Positions 2,357 to 45,898 of a stretch of DNA of 64,000 nucleotides are shown one piece after another. The position numbers were made by a program, and so were the translations under genes. This stretch comes from Stratiformator vulcanicus (GTDB lineage Bacteria > Planctomycetota > Planctomycetia > Planctomycetales > Planctomycetaceae). The first letter of the stretch is position 1. The number at the start of each line of letters is the position of its first letter. The stretch spans positions 3,740,088 through 3,804,087 of the forward strand of contig NZ_CP036268.1 of NCBI RefSeq assembly GCF_007744515.1, written 5' to 3'. A model generated the notes under the pieces. It did no database searches, was not told the DNA's origin, and saw nothing but the letters and a program-made list of their open reading frames with translations.

Positions 2357-2950
2357 ATGAACCTTCCCTATCGCTCGACTCCCGGAGTCCTGTTTCTGTG
2401 CGCAGCTGCGGCGTTTGTCGTAGTGCTGCCCGGTTGCGGGGCGGTCCGCGCGGTTTTGGCCCGTCACTCCGATCGTGGCTTTGAGTCACCGGCAGCGGAT
2501 CAGACGTTTTTCGTCGACTCCGACATTCACGCCGAGCATCAACCGATTCAGACGGCTTTGGCGACCTCCGAATACGCTGGGGAATCCGCTCTGCCCTCGT
2601 TCAACTCCGATCACTCAACGGTCGCGAGCTTTGAGGTCGTCACCAAAACCGAAGACGCTGCATCGCCTGCTTACGACTGGAGCAATTGGCTGCGGCGAAT
2701 CACGCACTCATCGGGATCCGATGAGGCGGTGCCCAAGAAGTCGATCCCACTGCCCCGAACCGACGGATCGTCGAATGGGATCGGCGGTTTGGGCGGCGGA
2801 TTATCTAGTTTCCGCTCGCTCTTTTCGACCGAAGACGTCGAGTCTTCCACGCCGCCGGAGTTCACCGAGGGAAACGATTCCAACGAGTCGAGTTCGAGCT
2901 TCATCGATGCGAGTAGTAACGCCGAGAGCGAAGAGTTCGGCAAATTTTGA
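2357..2950 (+). CDS. Putative lipoprotein, function unknown
   Basis: I do not recognise a family. From the ATG at 2357 the protein is 197 residues and begins with a lipoprotein signal: a short basic/polar start, a hydrophobic stretch LFLCAAAAFVVVL and a PGC lipobox-like cysteine at about residue 27. The remainder is low-complexity, rich in Ser, Asp, Glu and Gly, with a Gly-rich patch (GIGGLGGGLSS), and looks largely disordered. In-frame ATGs at 2333 and earlier are possible, but they would bury the signal peptide. It is likely an envelope-attached protein; the role is open. Confidence 0.6.
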   Translation: MNLPYRSTPGVLFLCAAAAFVVVLPGCGAVRAVLARHSDRGFESPAADQTFFVDSDIHAEHQPIQTALATSEYAGESALPSFNSDHSTVASFEVVTKTEDAASPAYDWSNWLRRITHSSGSDEAVPKKSIPLPRTDGSSNGIGGLGGGLSSFRSLFSTEDVESSTPPEFTEGNDSNESSSSFIDASSNAESEEFGKF

Positions 2951-3213
2951 GCCTCCGGTCGCCGGCTGAGCAGCAACACCGGGCTGAGACGCTGCGATAA
3001 TTTCGTGGCCGAAGACCGTTCGGTAACGAGACTTCAGCACCCCATTCTCGCCGGACGAAACTCGACGCTCGCATCTCGATTGTGCGACACCAAGAGGCCA
3101 GCCGAAACTTCGCAACGTCGTAGGTTGATTGCAAACGCCCGTGGGCCGACTACAATCGCCGATCCGATGGAAACCGGCCGGATCGACGCGAGAAATTTGC
3201 TGGAGCAACCAGG

Positions 3214-3561
3214 GTGCAAATCGAAGTTGCCGTTCGTCACGGAAGCCTTCGTGATGAGATCCGTGATCTCATTGTGCGAAAGTCTGAAAAACTAGTCACC
3301 TACTTCGAACGGGTCACCGCGATCAACGTGACCGTGGAGTTCGCTGGCGAGCGGGTGAAAACCGAACTGCTCGTCGACGCCGAACACAAACACGATTTCG
3401 TCGCATCGACTGAGGGCGACGAAATTGTGTCGACCTTCGAAGCGACGCTGCACAAAATGGAGCAGCAGATCAGGCGATACAAAGACAAGATTCAGGATCA
3501 TCGGCGCGATAAACCGACCAGCGAAGTCGTCACGGACGGCATTGACGACAGTGAAGAATAG
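3214..3561 (+). CDS. hpf: Ribosome hibernation-promoting factor (HPF/YfiA family)
   Basis: The 115-residue product matches the short HPF/RaiA fold (beta-alpha-beta-beta-beta-alpha). It starts MQIEVAVRHGSL, has a central segment with HKHDFVASTEGDEIVSTFE, and a second helix KMEQQIRRYKDKIQDHRR. These proteins bind the 30S subunit and silence ribosomes in starvation. The start is GTG with GGAG 8 bases upstream. It lacks the C-terminal dimerisation domain of long HPF. It heads the PTS-like cluster; hpf next to a nitrogen-type EIIA is a conserved pairing in many bacteria. Confidence 0.9.
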   Translation: MQIEVAVRHGSLRDEIRDLIVRKSEKLVTYFERVTAINVTVEFAGERVKTELLVDAEHKHDFVASTEGDEIVSTFEATLHKMEQQIRRYKDKIQDHRRDKPTSEVVTDGIDDSEE

Positions 3562-9687: not shown

Positions 9688-10035
9688 TCACTCTTCGTCG
9701 GTATCGGCATTGTCGTCAGGGGTTTCCATCGCCTCCTGTTGTGACGGCGTCCGCCGGAAGACGGCGCACACATCGTCGATCGGCACGACGAACAGCACGT
9801 TGTCCGGCTCAAGATCGACCGGAATCGCCCGCTTTGGATTGAACAGCACCTTGTCGTACTTCCGCACGGGGAAATCTTCATCCCGGTGGATCTGAGCGCT
9901 GATTTCAACGACCCGGCCGGTGATCGTCGGTATCTCGGCGTCATCGGGTAGGACGATCCCGCCGCGCGTTTGCTGGCGACTCTCGTCTTTGCGGATCAGA
10001 ATCCGCATCCCGAGCGGTTCCACAAAATCATCCAA
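9688..10035 (-). CDS. GroES/Cpn10-like co-chaperonin
   Basis: The 115-residue protein carries the Cpn10 fold signature: PLGMRILIRKDESRQQTRGGIVLPDD near the N-terminus, then GRVVEIS, a KYDKVLFN strand and a final VVPIDDVCAVF strand, followed by an acidic tail. The start is most likely TTG at 10035, since a perfect GGAGGT lies 6 bases upstream; the next in-frame starts (GTG 10026, ATG 10002) would trim the N-terminus. No groEL neighbours it. It diverges from classical GroES in the mobile loop, so partner specificity is uncertain. Confidence 0.8.
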   Translation of the reverse strand: MDDFVEPLGMRILIRKDESRQQTRGGIVLPDDAEIPTITGRVVEISAQIHRDEDFPVRKYDKVLFNPKRAIPVDLEPDNVLFVVPIDDVCAVFRRTPSQQEAMETPDDNADTDEE

Positions 10036-10304
10036 CGGCAGACCTCCACTCCACAACAAATGACAAGAAGTGCTTTCCCGCCTCAGCATTATGCACAGGG
10101 GGAAGCATTACGAGCTTTCAACGTCCCCGTCCGGGTTCGCGTCGCGAACCACTGCAATGCCGGTTCCCATCGTACGCGACCGGTCAACCGCCGACGAGAC
10201 TGTCGCCGACAAATGCCGTTTGAACCGAAGATTAACGCGGCAATCAGTTGAAGCCGTCGCCGCCGTGTGTCCGCGATAGTCACCGCGACCACTGAAGTTC
10301 TAGC

Positions 10305-11099
10305 CTACTTGTTCGGTGCGGCTGTGAATCCTTCGAGCAGTTCCTCGTCCCATTCTTCCAGCAGCGGCCAATCGATCGCGCAAGTGCCGAAGTCGGAGAG
10401 GTGCAGGTAGCCCTCGAGCCGCTTGATCGCTTGGTCGAGCAGAGCCGGATCGTTGCGAAAAATCGGCCCGTGACTCGGCAGGAGCCATTGAATGTCGCTG
10501 TCGCGAATTCGTTTGAGCGAGGTGATGAAGTCGGGAATGTCGGAGCCGTGATGCGCGTCGATATTTCCGACGCCCCCATCACGGTAGATGTTATCGCCGC
10601 TGAACAGCAAATCTCCCATGCGGAACGAGAGCTGGCTGTCGGTGTGACCGGGCGTATGCCAGACATCCAATGACAACGAGCCGAGTTCGACGGCATCGCC
10701 TTCGCCAATTGTTTCGTCGAACTTAATCTTCGGCATGTCGATCGAAAGCTCCTGAGCGGGGATCTCCGCATAGGAGGTGATGCGATCGCCTTCGGCGAGT
10801 ACCCGACCGGCGCTTTCGTGCCCGATCACCGCGGCCTGCGGCATCAGTTCCTTGAGCCGCGCCAAACCTTGGATGTGATCGACATCCGCGTGGGTGGCGA
10901 TCAGGTATTTGCAATTGGAGAGAGCAAAGTCCATCCGCCGGATCAGGTCGATGATCTCCGGCACCGTATCTTCGAATCCGATGTCGATTAGCATCCAATC
11001 GGGGCCGTCGAAAATCAGATAGACGCAGCATCCTAATCGTCGCCGCGCCTGATAATTCATCTCAATTACTTGAGGAAAGACTTCCAATCGGTCGAGCAT
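10305..11099 (-). CDS. Metallo-beta-lactamase fold hydrolase
   Basis: From ATG 11099 this is a 264-residue MBL-fold enzyme. The metal-binding motif is THADVDH, that is HxDxDH rather than the standard HxHxDH, followed by [34 protein letters not shown] and LLPSHGPIF, which supply the later His and Asp ligands. The substitution of the second His by Asp is found in some MBL subgroups and may change metal preference. The substrate cannot be assigned. The open frame extends upstream to 11189 but that part is Arg-rich and lacks homology. It stands alone between convergent and divergent neighbours. Confidence 0.85.
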
Positions 11100-12572: not shown

Positions 12573-13727
12573 CTAAAGCAGATCGGAGACGACCGAGTCC
12601 GCCACGAAGCGCCCGGCATTGGTCAGACGGATGCGGGAACCGCGTTGTTCGAGCAACTGCTCGCGAAGCTGATGCTGAAGCGTCGCTCCTCCCAGTTCAA
12701 TCAGATCGAAGCCGGTTCTTCCGCGAAATTCGTCGAGGTCCAGGCCGTCGACCATGCGCAAACCCAGCATGATTAATTCGCGGGCCGCCTGCTCAGGTTT
12801 TAAGCGTTCCTCTTCAGCGACCGGCGAGTGCCCTGACTCCATTCGCTTCAACCACGTAAAAACGCTGCGATGGTTCGAGCGGCGAACCCCATCAATATAG
12901 CTCGCCGCTCCCGGCCCAAAAGCCAGGTAAGGCTTTGCATTCCAATATCCGAGATTGTGTCGGCATTCGAATCCCGGCTGAGCGAAGTTCGAGATTTCAT
13001 AATGCCGATATCCCGCTTCAGTCAGTTGACCGATCGCGTGGGCATACATCTCGCGCTCTAATTCTTCGGGCACCGGCGAGAGCGTGCCTTTCGCCCGCCG
13101 CGTCCAAAAGCTGGTCCCTTTTTCGAATGTAAGGCCGTAGGTGGAGAGGTGCCGCGGTCGCAATTGCACCGCTTCGTCGAGGGTCGACTTCCAATCAGTC
13201 AGTGTCTGTCCCGGCACTCCAAAAATCAGATCGAGAGCGACATTCGGGATCGATTCGCGAATCGCAGCGGTGACTTCGCGGACGATGCCGCCGTCGTGAT
13301 CACGTTCTAATATTGAAAGCTCGCTCGAGTTAAATGATTGAACACCCAAGCTAATACGATTAATGCCCGACCCGGCCAGCGACGTCAATTTGTCTGCGTC
13401 GAGCAAGTCGCGGGGATTGGCTTCAATGCTCCACTCATACCCGGGAGCAAGCGAAAAGCGGGACCGGAGGACACCGATCAACTCACACAGTCGCTCGTTC
13501 GGCAAGTGCGTCGGAGTTCCCCCGCCCAAAAACATTGTATCGACTTCAATCGGCTTATCGATCGACTGCAACTCTCGCTTTAAGGCTGAGAGATAGTCGC
13601 CAATAAGATCATCGCGACCGGCAACGAGTGTGAAGTCACAATATCCGCAGCGGTGCCGGCAGAACGGAACGTGAATATAGACCGAACGCGGCAATGACAC
13701 GCTCAATGAGACCGGCCTATTCTGCAT
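12573..13727 (-). CDS. hemW: Radical SAM HemW (coproporphyrinogen oxidase-like, heme chaperone family)
   Basis: The 384-residue product has the HemW/HemN-like radical SAM core: SVYIHVPFCRHRCGYCDF holds the CxxxCxxC iron-sulfur motif, then FLGGGTPTHLPN, IEANPRD, RISLGVQSFN, LDLIFGVPGQT and HYEISNFAQPG. The HemW-specific tail HNLGYWNAKPYLAFGPGA and a C-terminal winged-helix are present. HemW proteins, unlike HemN, act in heme delivery rather than porphyrin oxidation. The gene overlaps the upstream PhyH gene by 11 bases, so the two are likely co-transcribed. Confidence 0.92.
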   Translation of the reverse strand: MQNRPVSLSVSLPRSVYIHVPFCRHRCGYCDFTLVAGRDDLIGDYLSALKRELQSIDKPIEVDTMFLGGGTPTHLPNERLCELIGVLRSRFSLAPGYEWSIEANPRDLLDADKLTSLAGSGINRISLGVQSFNSSELSILERDHDGGIVREVTAAIRESIPNVALDLIFGVPGQTLTDWKSTLDEAVQLRPRHLSTYGLTFEKGTSFWTRRAKGTLSPVPEELEREMYAHAIGQLTEAGYRHYEISNFAQPGFECRHNLGYWNAKPYLAFGPGAASYIDGVRRSNHRSVFTWLKRMESGHSPVAEEERLKPEQAARELIMLGLRMVDGLDLDEFRGRTGFDLIELGGATLQHQLREQLLEQRGSRIRLTNAGRFVADSVVSDLL

Positions 13728-14553
13728 CGGGCCGCGGCGGATTTTTCCAATGTCCGCTCGGATCGGAACCCGAGACGATCACGCCCTTTTCATTCCAGTC
13801 CATTCCGGCGCGGACATCAGCTGCCGCGTATCGCAGCGTCAACGCGCATCGCCGGCGATCCGATTCGTTCGCTTCCGATCCGTGAAGAAGCAAGTCGGAA
13901 TGAATGGAACACTCGCCGGCCAATAGGGGATCATCGACCGGCGTCCCATATTGTTCGGGATGATCAATCGTCTGATTGAGGACGTTTTGCTCATGCGAGC
14001 CGCTGGGGCGAAAGGTCATGTGGCCATAATGATGACTTCCGGCAATAAATCGCATATTCGCATTCCCGGCGTCGGCATCATCAATCGCGAGCCAGACCGT
14101 CACCGCCTTCGATGGTGACAGCGGCCAGTAGCTGGCGTCCTGGTGCCACGCCACGCTCTTGCCATCATGCGGCATCTTACAAAAGAAATGCGACCCCCAC
14201 CCCACGACATCGTCGCCCAGCAGGTCTTTCACGAGTGCGACGATCTCCGGCTTCTTTAAAATGTCATAGACGCGGCCATGCTTTAAATGCGCGGTGCTAA
14301 TCGAATAACTATCCTTTCCCTCCGCAAGATATTTCTGAAGCAATTCGTCGAAATAGGATCGAATCTCAGAAATTTCATTTTCGCCGAAGACCCGAAAAGG
14401 ACGCAGATAACCCTCGCGGTTGAACCGCTCGATTTGATCTTCGGAAAGTACCGTTGGATCATCATTTCTGATTTTGTGAAATCGCAAGTCGCGTTCCATT
14501 GTCGCGAGCGCGTCACCGTCGGGAACTGCTTTGAATTCTTTGTCCGATGCCAT
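13717..14553 (-). CDS. Phytanoyl-CoA dioxygenase (PhyH) family protein
   Basis: This 278-residue protein is an Fe(II)/2-oxoglutarate-dependent dioxygenase of the PhyH family. The first two iron ligands are in AWHQDASYW, the distal His in LLLHGSEANES, and the 2OG-binding Arg probably in RRRCALTLRY. Upstream, the DQIERFNREGYLRPF segment is the usual N-terminal start of the fold. PhyH proteins hydroxylate diverse small molecules, and the substrate cannot be read from sequence. Start ATG 14553 has AGGAAAGG upstream. A second family member lies at 54586; the two are only distantly alike. Confidence 0.88.
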   Translation of the reverse strand: MASDKEFKAVPDGDALATMERDLRFHKIRNDDPTVLSEDQIERFNREGYLRPFRVFGENEISEIRSYFDELLQKYLAEGKDSYSISTAHLKHGRVYDILKKPEIVALVKDLLGDDVVGWGSHFFCKMPHDGKSVAWHQDASYWPLSPSKAVTVWLAIDDADAGNANMRFIAGSHHYGHMTFRPSGSHEQNVLNQTIDHPEQYGTPVDDPLLAGECSIHSDLLLHGSEANESDRRRCALTLRYAAADVRAGMDWNEKGVIVSGSDPSGHWKNPPRPDAE

Positions 14554-38276: not shown

Positions 38277-39368
38277 TCATGTCCCCGAGTCGATCGCCCC
38301 CTGACAGCCGGAACCCGCACCTGCCATGCAACCGAAACAATGTCGGTTCACGATCACCCGTCGGCCCGCCACCGCTGGTCGGTCCTCCGCAACCTCCGGC
38401 TGATCGAGGTCGCGGATATTGTTCGGGATCGAGGCGTCGACTTCCAGACCCAGCATCTGATTGAAATCGCAGTCGTACAGCCGCCCGTCCCACCCAACGC
38501 TCAATGTATTGCGGCACATCAGCCCGTCGACGGCCGCCGGGTTAAATGCACGCACAAGTTTCATCAAATATTCATCGAAGCGACCCTGATCGACGAGTTC
38601 CTCCAAGAACCGACTGATGGGCATATTCGTGATCGTAAACAGCCGGGTGAATTCGACACCGAAGCGCGACCTAAGCTCTTCGCGGTAGTCGGCTTCGAGC
38701 GATTTCTGCTCGGGCGGCAGTGAAGGACCAACCGGATTGTAGACAAGCGTGAGCGACAGTGGTGAACCGGGCCAGCCGTACCCGAGTTCGTTCAGCCGGA
38801 GCAGCGCCTCGATCGACCGTTTGAAGGTCCCGTCGCCGCGCTGCTTGTCGGTGTTTTCTTCGAGATAGCAGGGCAGCGACGCGACGACCTCGACCTGATT
38901 CTCAGCCAGAAACTCCGGCATGTCGCGGAACTTGGGCGTGGTGAGAATTGTCAGATTGCAGCGATCGATCACGTGCACCCCGAGCTCGCGGGCCGATGTC
39001 ACCAAATGGCGAAACTGCGGATTCATTTCGGGCGCCCCGCCCGTCAGGTCGAGCGTATGCACGCCACCGCGCTTTAAGACGCGCAGGCACGCGTCGGCCG
39101 TCTCCCGATCCATCATCTCCCGCCGATCGGGCCCGGCGTCGACGTGACAATGCCGACAGGTCATGTTGCAGAGCTTGCCGACGTTGACCTGCAAAATCTC
39201 CACCGGCCCCGCCGTCAATGGCCCGAGGCCGTGCTGTTCGAGATGTTCCTCGAACGTCGAATGCTGCTCCGCCTCAGACAGCAACCGCACCTGCGCCTGC
39301 CCATCGGCAAGTGCATGCCCCCGTCGGGCCAGCGACTGCGTCGGTCGATGGAGTTGGACCAAGTTCAT
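38277..39368 (-). CDS. arsS: Arsenosugar biosynthesis radical SAM protein ArsS
   Basis: ArsS-type radical SAM enzymes transfer an adenosyl group to dimethylarsenite on the way to arsenosugars. From ATG 39368 the protein is 363 residues; the cluster motif is CNMTCRHC (Cys67, 71, 74), followed by HVDAGPDRREMM, LDLTGGAPEMNPQFR, DRCNLTILT and FGCMAGAGSGCQG, the Cys-rich C-terminus typical of ArsS. The open frame continues upstream to 39485 only by reading through the flanking repeat of the RAYT element, so the insertion lies just 26 bases before the start codon. Confidence 0.93.
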   Translation of the reverse strand: MNLVQLHRPTQSLARRGHALADGQAQVRLLSEAEQHSTFEEHLEQHGLGPLTAGPVEILQVNVGKLCNMTCRHCHVDAGPDRREMMDRETADACLRVLKRGGVHTLDLTGGAPEMNPQFRHLVTSARELGVHVIDRCNLTILTTPKFRDMPEFLAENQVEVVASLPCYLEENTDKQRGDGTFKRSIEALLRLNELGYGWPGSPLSLTLVYNPVGPSLPPEQKSLEADYREELRSRFGVEFTRLFTITNMPISRFLEELVDQGRFDEYLMKLVRAFNPAAVDGLMCRNTLSVGWDGRLYDCDFNQMLGLEVDASIPNNIRDLDQPEVAEDRPAVAGRRVIVNRHCFGCMAGAGSGCQGAIDSGT

Positions 39369-39394
39369 CGGCAGATTCTTCGGGATAAAATATC

Positions 39395-39450
39395 GGGTGG
39401 CCCGGCCGAACATCGGCCGGGTCGCGCAGCGACAAGATGCTGTTCGAGAA
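39395..39450 (-). repeat. REP-like repeat, left copy
   Basis: It contains CCCGGCCGAACATCGGCCGG, an 8-base palindrome with a seven-base loop, then the conserved tail. It lies 26 bases before the arsS start and 57 bases past the RAYT stop codon. Confidence 0.85.
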
Positions 39451-39507
39451 ACTTTCGCATGTTCTACAAATGCCCAACGCTTCAAGCGATTGATTCACTG
39501 CCGAAGA

Positions 39508-40026
39508 TCACTCAAGACTATCCGGCCAACCAATCGGCACGCCGACCGAACGTCCTAACTCGTACCAACCCACTGATGACCAACGCCAGTCGGTGGCTCG
39601 GTCAACCAGCCCCGCTCGAACAGGATTCAAATGCATGTAGTTTAATTTCTCCTCGGCCTTCGCAATGTTCAGCACATTGAAGTCGTAGTACCGTGCCTGC
39701 CAGACTGTTTTGTCATCAAGACCATTCCAGTATTTGGGCATCCATATCTCATAATGTCTCGCAATCAATGAGGATGTCTGCATCTTCCAGACATCCATGA
39801 ATTCACAGAGTTGCCCCGGCGTCGGAAACCACACCATCGCATGCACGTGATCCGGCATGAGTACAAATCCGAGGCATAATCCGCTTCTGTCGGAGAGGCG
39901 TTGGCCGAGTTGGCCGAGGACGATCCGACATTGCTTGTCATGCTGAAGAAGTTTGCGGCGTTTAAAGCATGAGAACGTAAGAAAATGGACCGTCGGCTGG
40001 TCGTCGATGACCTGGCGGTGAGACAT
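39508..40026 (-). CDS. REP-associated tyrosine transposase (RAYT, TnpA_REP family)
   Basis: The 172-residue protein is a Y1 HUH nuclease of the RAYT group. The HUH motif is MPDHVHAMVWFP, the catalytic Tyr lies in WQARYYDFNV, and the C-terminal YMHLNPVRAGLVDRATDWRWSS is the family hallmark. RAYTs recognise and move REP palindromes such as those on both sides here. The frame is intact, so the element may still be active. Unlike IS200, no second ORF is present. Confidence 0.93.
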   Translation of the reverse strand: MSHRQVIDDQPTVHFLTFSCFKRRKLLQHDKQCRIVLGQLGQRLSDRSGLCLGFVLMPDHVHAMVWFPTPGQLCEFMDVWKMQTSSLIARHYEIWMPKYWNGLDDKTVWQARYYDFNVLNIAKAEEKLNYMHLNPVRAGLVDRATDWRWSSVGWYELGRSVGVPIGWPDSLE

Positions 40027-40126: not shown

Positions 40127-41308
40127 TCAACAACACGCCCCGCCGTCGCAGCCCTCCGTCTCTGCCTCGGTCGTCGCGTCGTAATCCTTACCCTTCGTTT
40201 CTTCCGGGTGTCGCCGTGCGTTCTTTCGGCAGTCGTATTCCGCAGCTTGTTCGAGCGGGATGTTGTGCCGCGGTTCGACCGGTAAGAACTGGCCTTCGTA
40301 CGGGCCTTGTTGCAGCAGTCTAAAAGTCTTGTCGCAGACGGCCATGCGTTCGCCGCGGTAGTAGGTGTGGCCGTCGTCGTCGGTGACGTGTTGAAAGGGG
40401 CCGCGGTAGATCATCGCCTGATTACGGTCGAGGCACGGGCCCTGTTTGCCCTTGTACGCGACGACGGTAACAGAGCGGAATTCGATCCCATTGACCGTCC
40501 GCCAAGGTTTTTCTTCGCGTTTTTCGATCGCAATGCCGTGGAAGCCGGCCGCTTCGAATTCCTTAAGGAACTGGTCCTCCCGCCAAGCACCGGAGATACA
40601 GCCGGACCACAGCTCGGGATCATTGCGCATCTGTTCGGGGACGTCTTCATCGCTGACGATATCACTGATCGCCGCTTTGCCGCCTCGCTTGAGCACGCGG
40701 AAAATCTCAGCAAAGAGCTGCCGGCGGTCGGCTGGGCGGACAAGGTTGAGCACACAATTGGAGACGACACAATCGACCGAGTCGTCGGCGATCATCGGCT
40801 CCTCGCGGCGGATACGATCTTCGATCCGCCGGGCTTCGAGGATGCCGTCGACTGTCGAAACGTCGACATCGCTAAGCGATTCAGCAAGCTCTTCCAAATC
40901 GATCGCGAGGTCCTGAATTCGGCCGTTGCGGAAGTCGACATTTGAGAATCCGAGTTTGTCGGCCATCTCGCCGCGATATTGGCGGGCGAGTCCGAGCATT
41001 TCGCAATTGCAGTCGACACCGATGACCCGGCCCGACTCGCCGACGACCTGGGCGGCGATGTAGCAGAGCTTGCCGCCACCGGAGCCGAGGTCGACGACGG
41101 TGTCGCCCGGTTTCAAGAAGGGGGAAGGGTCGCCGCAGCCGTAATCGCGCTCGATGATTTCGTCGGGAATGATCTCCAGCAGCGAGCGGTCGTATTCAAC
41201 GGGGCAGCACAGCGCCTCTTCCCGCTGTGTCGCAGCGGCGGAGTAGCGTTGCCGCACCGAGTCATCTTCCGTGAGAACCTGCAATCCCTTTGAGCTAACG
41301 GTGGCCAT
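40127..41308 (-). CDS. arsM: ArsM-like arsenite S-adenosylmethionine methyltransferase
   Basis: From ATG 41308 (AGGA about 6 bases upstream) the 393-residue protein has a class I methyltransferase fold: motif I VVDLGSGGGKLCYIA, GVDCNCEML, VDCVVSNCVLNLV and LKRGGKAAISDIV. The early CCPVEYD (Cys34-Cys35) and Cys in VSNCVLN resemble the arsenic-binding cysteines of ArsM. A C-terminal extension of about 110 residues ends in a cysteine-rich CDGGACC tail. ArsM methylates arsenite; together with arsS it would make methylated or sugar arsenicals. The substrate is family- and context-based inference. Confidence 0.88.
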   Translation of the reverse strand: MATVSSKGLQVLTEDDSVRQRYSAAATQREEALCCPVEYDRSLLEIIPDEIIERDYGCGDPSPFLKPGDTVVDLGSGGGKLCYIAAQVVGESGRVIGVDCNCEMLGLARQYRGEMADKLGFSNVDFRNGRIQDLAIDLEELAESLSDVDVSTVDGILEARRIEDRIRREEPMIADDSVDCVVSNCVLNLVRPADRRQLFAEIFRVLKRGGKAAISDIVSDEDVPEQMRNDPELWSGCISGAWREDQFLKEFEAAGFHGIAIEKREEKPWRTVNGIEFRSVTVVAYKGKQGPCLDRNQAMIYRGPFQHVTDDDGHTYYRGERMAVCDKTFRLLQQGPYEGQFLPVEPRHNIPLEQAAEYDCRKNARRHPEETKGKDYDATTEAETEGCDGGACC

Positions 41309-41656
41309 CGCGTTCCTGATGCTGATCGATTTCTGTTGGATCGGCGTGACGTGCCAGCCGAACCTTCGTGCTTGTTGCAACAAAGATACGCATCTTGTCA
41401 AACGTCATGCTGTGATGCATCCCACAAAAACTGACACGCGCTGGATGCGGGCGACCACCGCCGGAACCGGTAGAATCGGCACATCTGTTCGGACTGATCG
41501 CCGACAGTGCTCAAAAGTGCGAGAATCGACAATGACCACGTTTCGATTTGACAGCGCACCGGTGCGACCTAAGTTTTCGGCGAATCGCAACTCAACGACG
41601 GCGATGACCATCTCCAAAAGCCGTCGCAAATTCATCCCCGGAAAGAGACAGTCCCC
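41309..41656. other. Divergent intergenic region between arsM and a pseudopilin gene
   Basis: About 350 bases that must hold the promoters for the leftward arsenic genes and the rightward pseudopilin. I see no ArsR-type gene and no obvious dyad operator near the arsM start. Confidence 0.5.
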
Positions 41657-43763: not shown

Positions 43764-45380
43764 ATGTCGACATCGCCGAACGGGTTGTTTCGCGGCTACG
43801 AGGACGACGAAGCGGACGATATTCAGAGTCTGCCGGTCTCGATCCCGCTTGAACTCGTGGTCCGCGATCACGAAGTCATCCGCGAACTGCTCCAACATTC
43901 TGAAGGTCGCGACCGGGACGATTTTGCCCTCTCGGCGCTTCGGCTCGGCGTTCTCTCGATTCGACAGGCCTCCGGCGAAATCGACTCCTCAGCCGTTCGG
44001 CGGGAAGGGGAGCGACTGATCGAGGGTGTCGAACAGTCTCTTTCCCAACACAAAGCACTGCTCGAATCAAAACTTCAGGACACGCTTCGCACTTACTTCA
44101 ATCCTGAAGATGGCCATTTCACCGAACGGGTCCAGAAGCTCGTCGACAAAGATGGCGAATTTGCCGGCGTGATCGAACGCATGGTGACGGGCGAAGGCTC
44201 CGAACTGGCCCGCCGGCTCGATCAACAGTTCGGCCCCAATAGTTCTCTTGCCCGCATGCTCTCGAGCGATCCCGAAGCGGGGGACGGCTTCCTTTCGGCG
44301 CTGCGACGGACGATCGAGGGAGACGTCACCCGGCAGCGGGAAATGTTGCTTAAGGAATTTCAGATCGAGAATGACCAGTCGGCTCTGTACCGCCTGCTGA
44401 CACATGTCGCCAACAAGAATAAGGAACTGCGCGAAGGTCTGGCTTCGGAGGTCACCAAACTGACCGACGAATTTGATTTCGGCCGTGACGAGTCGGCGAT
44501 TTCACGCATGAAACGGTCTCTGGAGCAGACACAGTCGAAGATCGATCAAAACCTGACGCTCGACCAGGAAGACAGCGCCCTGTCGCGGCTCAAACGAGAG
44601 ATGTTCGAACTGCTCAAGGAACAGGGCAAGTCGGCCAGCGAGTTTCAGGAGGAGATCAAGAGCACGATCCGAGAACTGAAAGCCCGTGAGAAAGAACGAG
44701 CCGCCTCAACGCGACACGGCGACGACTTCGAGGCCGATGTGCTCGCCGCTTTTCAAACGGCCGCCGAGCCATCGGGAGCGATCGTGACCCCGTGCGGGAA
44801 CACGACCGGCAGCATTCCGTACTGTAAGAAGGGCGACATCGTCATCGAACTCGGTTCCGATCACGCGGCAGCCGGAAGCAGAATCGCGATCGAAGCCAAG
44901 GAAGACCGGTCTTACTCGCTGAGCGCCGCGCTGGCTGAGATCGAAGAAGCGCGGAAGAATCGCGGAGCCGAGGTCGGCATTTTCATTTTCTCTTCGAAAG
45001 TAGCCAGCGAAGACTTCGAACCCTTCTCGCGAATCGGAGACGATCTGCTCGTGGTGTGGGATTCGGAAGACCCTGACGATCAGCTCAAGGTCCGGCTCGC
45101 GTTCAGCGTGGCCACGGCGCTGTGCACTCACAAAGGGGCACAGCGAGACCGAGTCGAAGTCGACTTTACGGAGATCGAAACTTCAATCCGAGCGGTCGAG
45201 AAGCAGGCCGGCAGCCTCGACGAAATTCGCAAATTCGCTGAGGGCATCGAGGATCGGGCGGGCAAAATCATTGCCAAACTCGATACCCGGCAGAAGACAC
45301 TGCGTCGGCAAGTCGATCGTCTTGACGATCAGGTCGAGGAGCTGAAGAACGTATTCAAGACCGTGGCCGAGGATGCGTGA
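43764..45380 (+). CDS. Coiled-coil repeat protein with a PD-(D/E)XK-like nuclease core
   Basis: No close family recognised. In the 538-residue protein, residues 85-310 are helical and carry spaced repeats of the type D-x-(E/Q)-S-A-x-x-R-(L/M): NDQSALYRLL (203-212), RDESAISRMK (241-250), QEDSALSRLK (268-277), with weaker versions at 115-166. Residues 318-410 look like a PD-(D/E)XK core: GDDFEADVLAAF helix, GDIVIEL strand (Asp358), RIAIEAKED (Glu377, Lys379), and EEARKNRGAEVGIFIFS. This resembles the DUF2130 style. A second coiled coil ends the protein. No signal or membrane segment. Confidence 0.7.
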   Translation: MSTSPNGLFRGYEDDEADDIQSLPVSIPLELVVRDHEVIRELLQHSEGRDRDDFALSALRLGVLSIRQASGEIDSSAVRREGERLIEGVEQSLSQHKALLESKLQDTLRTYFNPEDGHFTERVQKLVDKDGEFAGVIERMVTGEGSELARRLDQQFGPNSSLARMLSSDPEAGDGFLSALRRTIEGDVTRQREMLLKEFQIENDQSALYRLLTHVANKNKELREGLASEVTKLTDEFDFGRDESAISRMKRSLEQTQSKIDQNLTLDQEDSALSRLKREMFELLKEQGKSASEFQEEIKSTIRELKAREKERAASTRHGDDFEADVLAAFQTAAEPSGAIVTPCGNTTGSIPYCKKGDIVIELGSDHAAAGSRIAIEAKEDRSYSLSAALAEIEEARKNRGAEVGIFIFSSKVASEDFEPFSRIGDDLLVVWDSEDPDDQLKVRLAFSVATALCTHKGAQRDRVEVDFTEIETSIRAVEKQAGSLDEIRKFAEGIEDRAGKIIAKLDTRQKTLRRQVDRLDDQVEELKNVFKTVAEDA

Positions 45381-45550
45381 TCAGCGACGATTCCAATCCT
45401 GATTCCGGTCGAAAACCAAACAATCGCCAAAGTCGGGCGTCCTTACTAGCACGAGCGACGGATGCACATTAGGGTGCCGATCTGTTGGCACAATTCAGTC
45501 GCAACAGCGGCTTGAAACGTCAGTTTTACCTCACGACCTTGGAGCATGAC

Positions 45551-45898
45551 GTGGCAGACGAAACGACGAATGGCGATGCGGCCGATGACGGCAATCCTCC
45601 GCAGCAGCAGGTCAAATTCAACGTGGATGATTCGAACGTCCACGCGACCTACACCAACTTCTGCCGGGTCAACAGCACTGCGGAAGAGTTGATTCTCGAC
45701 ATCGGGCTCAATGCTAATCCCGCGACCGCGCAGGAAGGCAACGTGCGGGTCGATCAGCGGGTGATCATGAATCATTACACGGCGAAACGACTCTTGGCCG
45801 CGCTTTCGATGGCGGTTCAGCGACACGAGCAGGCCTTCGGTGCGATCGAACTCGACGTTCGCCGTCGGGTCCAGGCCATGCCGCCCGCGTCATCTTGA
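45551..45898 (+). CDS. DUF3467 protein
   Basis: The 115-residue product carries the DUF3467 pattern: ATYTNFCRVNSTAEELILDIGLN, VDQRVIMNHYTAKRLLAALSMAVQRHEQAFGAIELDVRRR in consecutive parts. The start is GTG 45551, with GGAG 6 bases upstream; the open frame before it is not homologous. Function of the family is unknown. It lies 170 bases after the nuclease-like gene and is co-oriented. Confidence 0.85.
   Translation: MADETTNGDAADDGNPPQQQVKFNVDDSNVHATYTNFCRVNSTAEELILDIGLNANPATAQEGNVRVDQRVIMNHYTAKRLLAALSMAVQRHEQAFGAIELDVRRRVQAMPPASS

Follow-up and report, generated by a model that had tools for sequence, protein, structure and literature searches.

The window, by which we mean the whole stretch of 64,000 nucleotides of the Stratiformator vulcanicus genome analyzed here, carries two co-directional genes at positions 43764-45898: an open reading frame (ORF) of 538 aa, which we propose to encode a helical-rod nuclease of the PD-(D/E)XK superfamily, and a 137-aa ORF whose product matches the Pfam family DUF3467 (E 8.9e-21). 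Both, and the features of the first, are listed in Table 1. The nuclease ORF is present in a single copy in the 5.2-Mb genome, and no transmembrane helix was found in its product, whose highest 19-residue hydropathy is 0.96. Scans of the locus for promoters, terminators, and sigma-54 boxes gave results at or below chance level. The gene's neighbors are ordinary, and no methyltransferase gene lies beside it. Elsewhere in the window, on the minus strand, a gene for a radical SAM protein with DUF3641 (38277-39485) lies near a gene for a methyltransferase with a cysteine-rich end (40127-41401), and we take the two to resemble arsenosugar and arsenite-methylation genes; between them, also on the minus strand, is encoded a protein with an IS200-like Y1 transposase domain (39508-40026).

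Table 1. Features of the two-gene locus, in window coordinates; residue numbers refer to the 538-aa protein, and conservation was counted over 71 distinct homologues from bacteria and archaea.
Feature	Position	Strand	Basis or remark
ORF, 538 aa, proposed helical-rod PD-(D/E)XK nuclease	43764..45380	+	ORF listing, family alignments
Conserved N-terminal helical region, residues 25-130, with ALRxGVLALRQARG motif	43836..44153	+	alignment
Degenerate repeat SSLARM, residues 160-165	44241..44258	+	
Repeat 1, FQIENDQSALYRL, residues 199-211	44358..44396	+	
Repeat 2, FDFGRDESAISRM, residues 237-249	44472..44510	+	38 residues past repeat 1
Repeat 3, LTLDQEDSALSRL, residues 264-276	44553..44591	+	27 residues past repeat 2
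PD-(D/E)XK core domain, residues 312-458	44697..45137	+	AlphaFold, PDB fold search, hhalign
E323, helix-1 glutamate	44730..44732	+	69/71 (Q in 2)
D358, candidate metal ligand	44835..44837	+	71/71
E377, candidate metal ligand	44892..44894	+	71/71
K379, candidate catalytic lysine	44898..44900	+	69/71 (R in 2 distant homologues)
C-terminal long helix, residues 437-537, probable coiled coil	45072..45374	+	DSSP on model
DUF3467 protein (PF11950), 137 aa, TTG start as listed	45485..45898	+	neighbor, judged outside the system

Modeled by AlphaFold with a 40-sequence alignment, the core has the order alpha-beta-beta-beta-alpha-beta at pLDDT >90 (helix 319-337; strands 340-343, 359-362, and 373-379; helix 386-400; strand 404-410), with F322 and E323 in the first helix, G357 and D358 just before strand 359-362, and E377 and K379, a standard E-x-K active site, in strand 373-379. 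A preliminary description of the sequence had read residues 318-410 as helix-FE, strand-GD, strand-ExK and had put forward D358, E377, and K379 as candidate catalytic residues; alignment and model agree with the order, and the three residues are conserved in all or nearly all homologues (Table 1). Since the helices diluted the fold search with the full-length model, we also modeled the core by itself (pLDDT 91.3, pTM 0.87). Its best fold match in the PDB is McrC, the nuclease subunit of McrBC (6ut7; probability 1.00, TM 0.60 on the query); most of the matches ranked next are PD-(D/E)XK nucleases, for example, MspJI, EcoT38I, BamHI, and Cap4. Every match has E >0.001, and unrelated chains also occur in the list. 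The likeness to McrC is one of core fold; however, no McrB GTPase gene was recognized beside the window gene. A PDB sequence search returned nothing useful.

A profile-profile comparison, which the preliminary description had recommended, aligned the core with two Pfam families. With a 71-member core profile, hhalign gave 93.0% for Mrr_cat (E 3.3e-7), with D, E/Q, and K in register, and 92.9% for DUF2130 (E 3.6e-7), with D, E, and K in register, against 0.7% and 0.4% for the respective reversed controls and 0.1% for DUF3467; with a 40-member profile the values were 67.7% and 54.1%. In the same comparison Mrr_cat and DUF2130 reached only 21.9% with one another, so the core profile is nearer to each of them than they are to each other, and the family core may be placed between these two families. 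The predicted fold, its PDB matches, the conserved D358, E377, and K379, and the alignments with both profiles make the nuclease reading well supported by computation; fold, matches, and alignments also suggest that these three residues lie close together in space.

As the preliminary description had anticipated, no known family claims the protein in Pfam, NCBIfam, or PHROG, and PADLOC gave only weak matches to it and its relatives, mostly in the helical parts. Against Mrr_cat (PF04471) it scores 15.6 bits, under the Pfam cut-off of 21 that two relatives exceed (L064, 22.0 bits; L105, 27.6), and it further differs from Mrr in its long repeat stalk and in having no second Mrr domain in Pfam. 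Although its core aligns with DUF2130 as well as with Mrr_cat, it has no Pfam match to DUF2130 (PF09903), against which one archaeal relative scores 15.7 (cut-off 26.7). There is likewise no Pfam match to RmuC (PF02646). The protein therefore represents an unnamed family within the known PD-(D/E)XK superfamily. The putative nucleases of COG4636 are also scattered, solitary PD-(D/E)XK genes with no fixed neighbors (PMC551604); however, in COG4636 the active-site lysine has migrated and the genes have proliferated massively in some genomes, whereas the window protein is encoded once and has its lysine in the standard place.

Ahead of the core, three D/E-x-S-A-L-x-R-L repeats follow each other at exact steps of 38 and 27 residues. 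The looser pattern S-A/S-L/I-x-R-L/M occurs at residues 160, 206, 244, and 271, with acidic or Gln residues preceding the last three, and 20,000 shuffles of residues 101-310 contained at most two such motifs compared with the four observed, for a pattern defined after the repeats had been seen. Stronger evidence is provided by the homologues: about 30 of 40 repeat the longer motif F/L-x-L-D-x-x-x-S-A-L-x-R-L with exact spacings of 38 and 27 residues, to which some add another 27. Most of the 40 have three or four copies, and repeat number differs among relatives by whole 27-residue units. The repeats noticed earlier in front of the core, described then as D-x-(E/Q)-S-A-x-x-R, are confirmed. 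The AlphaFold model places the motifs in low-confidence stretches between helices, and so we describe the stalk as an interrupted helical rod, not as a proven continuous coiled coil. A profile of the N-terminal region (residues 25-130) also recognizes archaeal and distant homologues, and these members retain the N-terminal region, the core, and the C-terminal extension; the architecture is conserved across a family whose distribution is patchy.

The nuclease was found in 13 of 59 related genomes (one copy being a fragment) and, across the phylum Planctomycetota, to which the named near relatives of the window protein belong, in 34 of 392 genomes. The genome collection contains 41 loci, some of them in bins labeled as Acidobacteria, Myxococcales and other Deltaproteobacteria, Alpha- and Betaproteobacteria, Dehalococcoidia, and Coriobacteriia; further homologues are carried on archaeal plasmids. 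Most of these come from metagenome bins, where the taxon assigned to a short contig is uncertain; the contigs with the Dehalococcoidia and Parvularculaceae copies measure 4 Mb and 726 kb, respectively. From this scattered occurrence in relatives, in the phylum, in other phyla, and on archaeal plasmids, we regard the gene as accessory and mobile. Phages gave no match to the nuclease, and viral contigs gave one locus, L179. The visible genes of this contig (57-16420), which is listed as viral, are HmaC, a kinase, a regulator, and the nuclease, and resemble a bacterial defense island. Broken copies occur at L033 (518-994, a remnant in genome G028) and L180 (about 9719-10942, in G289, with a TAA stop), each with a sigma-54 regulator gene alongside.

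Most copies of the gene, including the one in the window, are solitary. Clustering of neighbors revealed no general conserved partner and only small sets shared by near relatives, with the exception of an RtcR-like regulator. This sigma-54 activator with an RtcR-like N-terminus adjoins the nuclease in five loci, judged by coordinates to be divergent in L179, L050, L057, and L033 and upstream in the same direction in L180; its N-terminus is labeled CARF from sub-threshold Pfam matches in two cases (E 0.0006 and 0.004) and from similarity among the regulators. RtcR-like CARF regulators have been found with restriction-modification (R-M) systems by Makarova and colleagues (PMC4012209), and the CoCoNuT study reported that RtcR and type I R-M occur along with coiled-coil ShdA nucleases (PMC11090510). 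Among our loci, type I R-M genes follow the nuclease gene in L050 and its remnant in L033 and are also near the homologue in L206, HmaC is present in L179, and the CRISPR genes Cas3 and Cas_GSU0053 follow the nuclease gene in L064. Restriction-type genes of other kinds adjoin it in L082 (a DNA methyltransferase), L043 (an Eco57I-type enzyme), and L105 (type III Mod/Res), and they too favor a role in restriction. A neighbor scan with self-hits excluded was positive at 8 of 72 homologue loci versus 0 of 40 control loci, a small set around housekeeping genes (NnrD, DUF3467); since its reference proteins were taken from homologue loci (for the regulator, the N-terminal part only) and the scan was designed after the observation, this excess is descriptive, not preplanned, and suggestive only. 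In our one tree, made by a quick method and carrying a long-branch warning for distant members, the window gene groups with its two closest relatives, L034 and L053, whose neighbors are as ordinary as its own, and the four regulator-linked copies that were included belong to a separate 10-row subclade.

The reading that we consider probable is that the protein is a stand-alone nuclease for DNA restriction or quality control, a dimeric helical-rod PD-(D/E)XK enzyme of an unnamed family, with the DUF3467 protein a bystander. It would be a soluble DNA endonuclease, probably Mg2+-dependent, built as a rod from an N-terminal helical domain, a stalk with a variable number of 27-residue repeats, the core, and a C-terminal helix, the last probably a coiled coil through which two subunits dimerize. 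The helical parts may position the dimer on foreign, unmodified, or abnormal DNA, which the core would then cut, and the copy in the window would act alone as an accessory enzyme. The preliminary description had called a DNA-processing or defense role conceivable; the neighbors of some relatives argue for such a role circumstantially, and nothing at the window locus does. A role in restriction or quality control nevertheless seems the most likely, on the basis of the relatives, although the ordinary neighbors of the window copy, L034, and L053, the absence of a partner gene conserved across the family, the weak PADLOC matches, and the position of regulator-linked copies in another subclade count against it.

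A housekeeping function has to be weighed against this. The protein could be an RmuC-like recombination or repair nuclease that cuts recombination intermediates and has no part in defense: its layout is that of RmuC, a PD-(D/E)XK core flanked by coiled coils (PMC1189080), its copies mostly stand alone among housekeeping genes, and RmuC itself is absent from the window genome and present in only one of 40 genomes searched. Yet presence in so few of the related genomes is ill-suited to an important repair enzyme, as are the broken copies in G028 and G289, and six non-planctomycete genomes carry both a true RmuC and a member of this family. The core also gave just 2.9% with a profile of six RmuC sequences, with no convincing alignment. 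Membership of RmuC was rejected on that comparison and on the co-occurrence, and we consider an RmuC-like role unlikely, if deserving of serious attention. It is improbable that the protein is instead the nuclease half of an R-M pair with its methyltransferase gene at another site of the genome. In L082 a gene for a DPPF-motif DNA methyltransferase (2603-3478) does start 3 bases past the nuclease stop codon, an Eco57I-type gene overlaps the end of the nuclease gene in L043, and type III Mod and Res precede it in L105; however, these are three different kinds of methyltransferase, and none was recognized at most loci, that of the window included.

The protein might also retain the nuclease fold without its catalysis and serve as a structural DNA-binding or chromosome-organizing protein. 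This would suit the long helical rod and the R in place of K379 in two distant homologues, but a dead enzyme would not be expected to preserve D358 and E377 in all 71 homologues and K379 in 69 of them, and we think this very improbable. Finally, the preliminary description had suggested the DUF3467 protein as a partner and co-occurrence as the check. The two ORFs do adjoin, in the same direction and 104 bases apart, but DUF3467 is near-universal (56 of the 59 related genomes, compared with 13 for the nuclease), two of the three genomes without it, G003 and G036, have the nuclease all the same, the two genes are 1.2 Mb apart in the single-contig genome G001, and a single-sequence search found DUF3467 beside no other homologue. 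With no recurrent neighborhood, a functional partnership is scarcely credible and was rejected; the DUF3467 protein is an unrelated bystander.

Returning to restriction or quality control as the preferred role, a parallel is offered by ShdA (Shield, Pseudomonas), a coiled-coil nuclease of RtcR-linked type I R-M loci (PMC11090510) that combines an RmuC domain with a membrane anchor (PMC10270631). Some relatives of the window protein share this RtcR-linked setting; the window protein itself, however, has neither RmuC domain nor membrane anchor. A possible but more doubtful extension is that the family comprises new restriction effectors of bacteria and archaea, stand-alone nucleases of helical-rod form, comparable to ShdA though outside the RmuC family, some controlled by RtcR-like CARF/sigma-54 regulators, in which the number of 27-residue repeats tunes reach or assembly. 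If the defense reading is true, the family would join ShdA as an independent second example of a coiled-coil nuclease placed at RtcR-linked restriction loci, which would point to a benefit of the helical-rod layout itself for restriction. The whole 27-residue steps make the relation of stalk length to activity directly testable.

Two smaller observations concern the loci of relatives. The distant homologue in L206 (about 12900-14350), one with R for K379, lies between the type I R-M genes and a gene for a BrxC/BrxD-like ATPase, and similar small ORFs occur near the homologue in L196 (8214-8615), L200 (8598-9065), and L201 (9274-9699).
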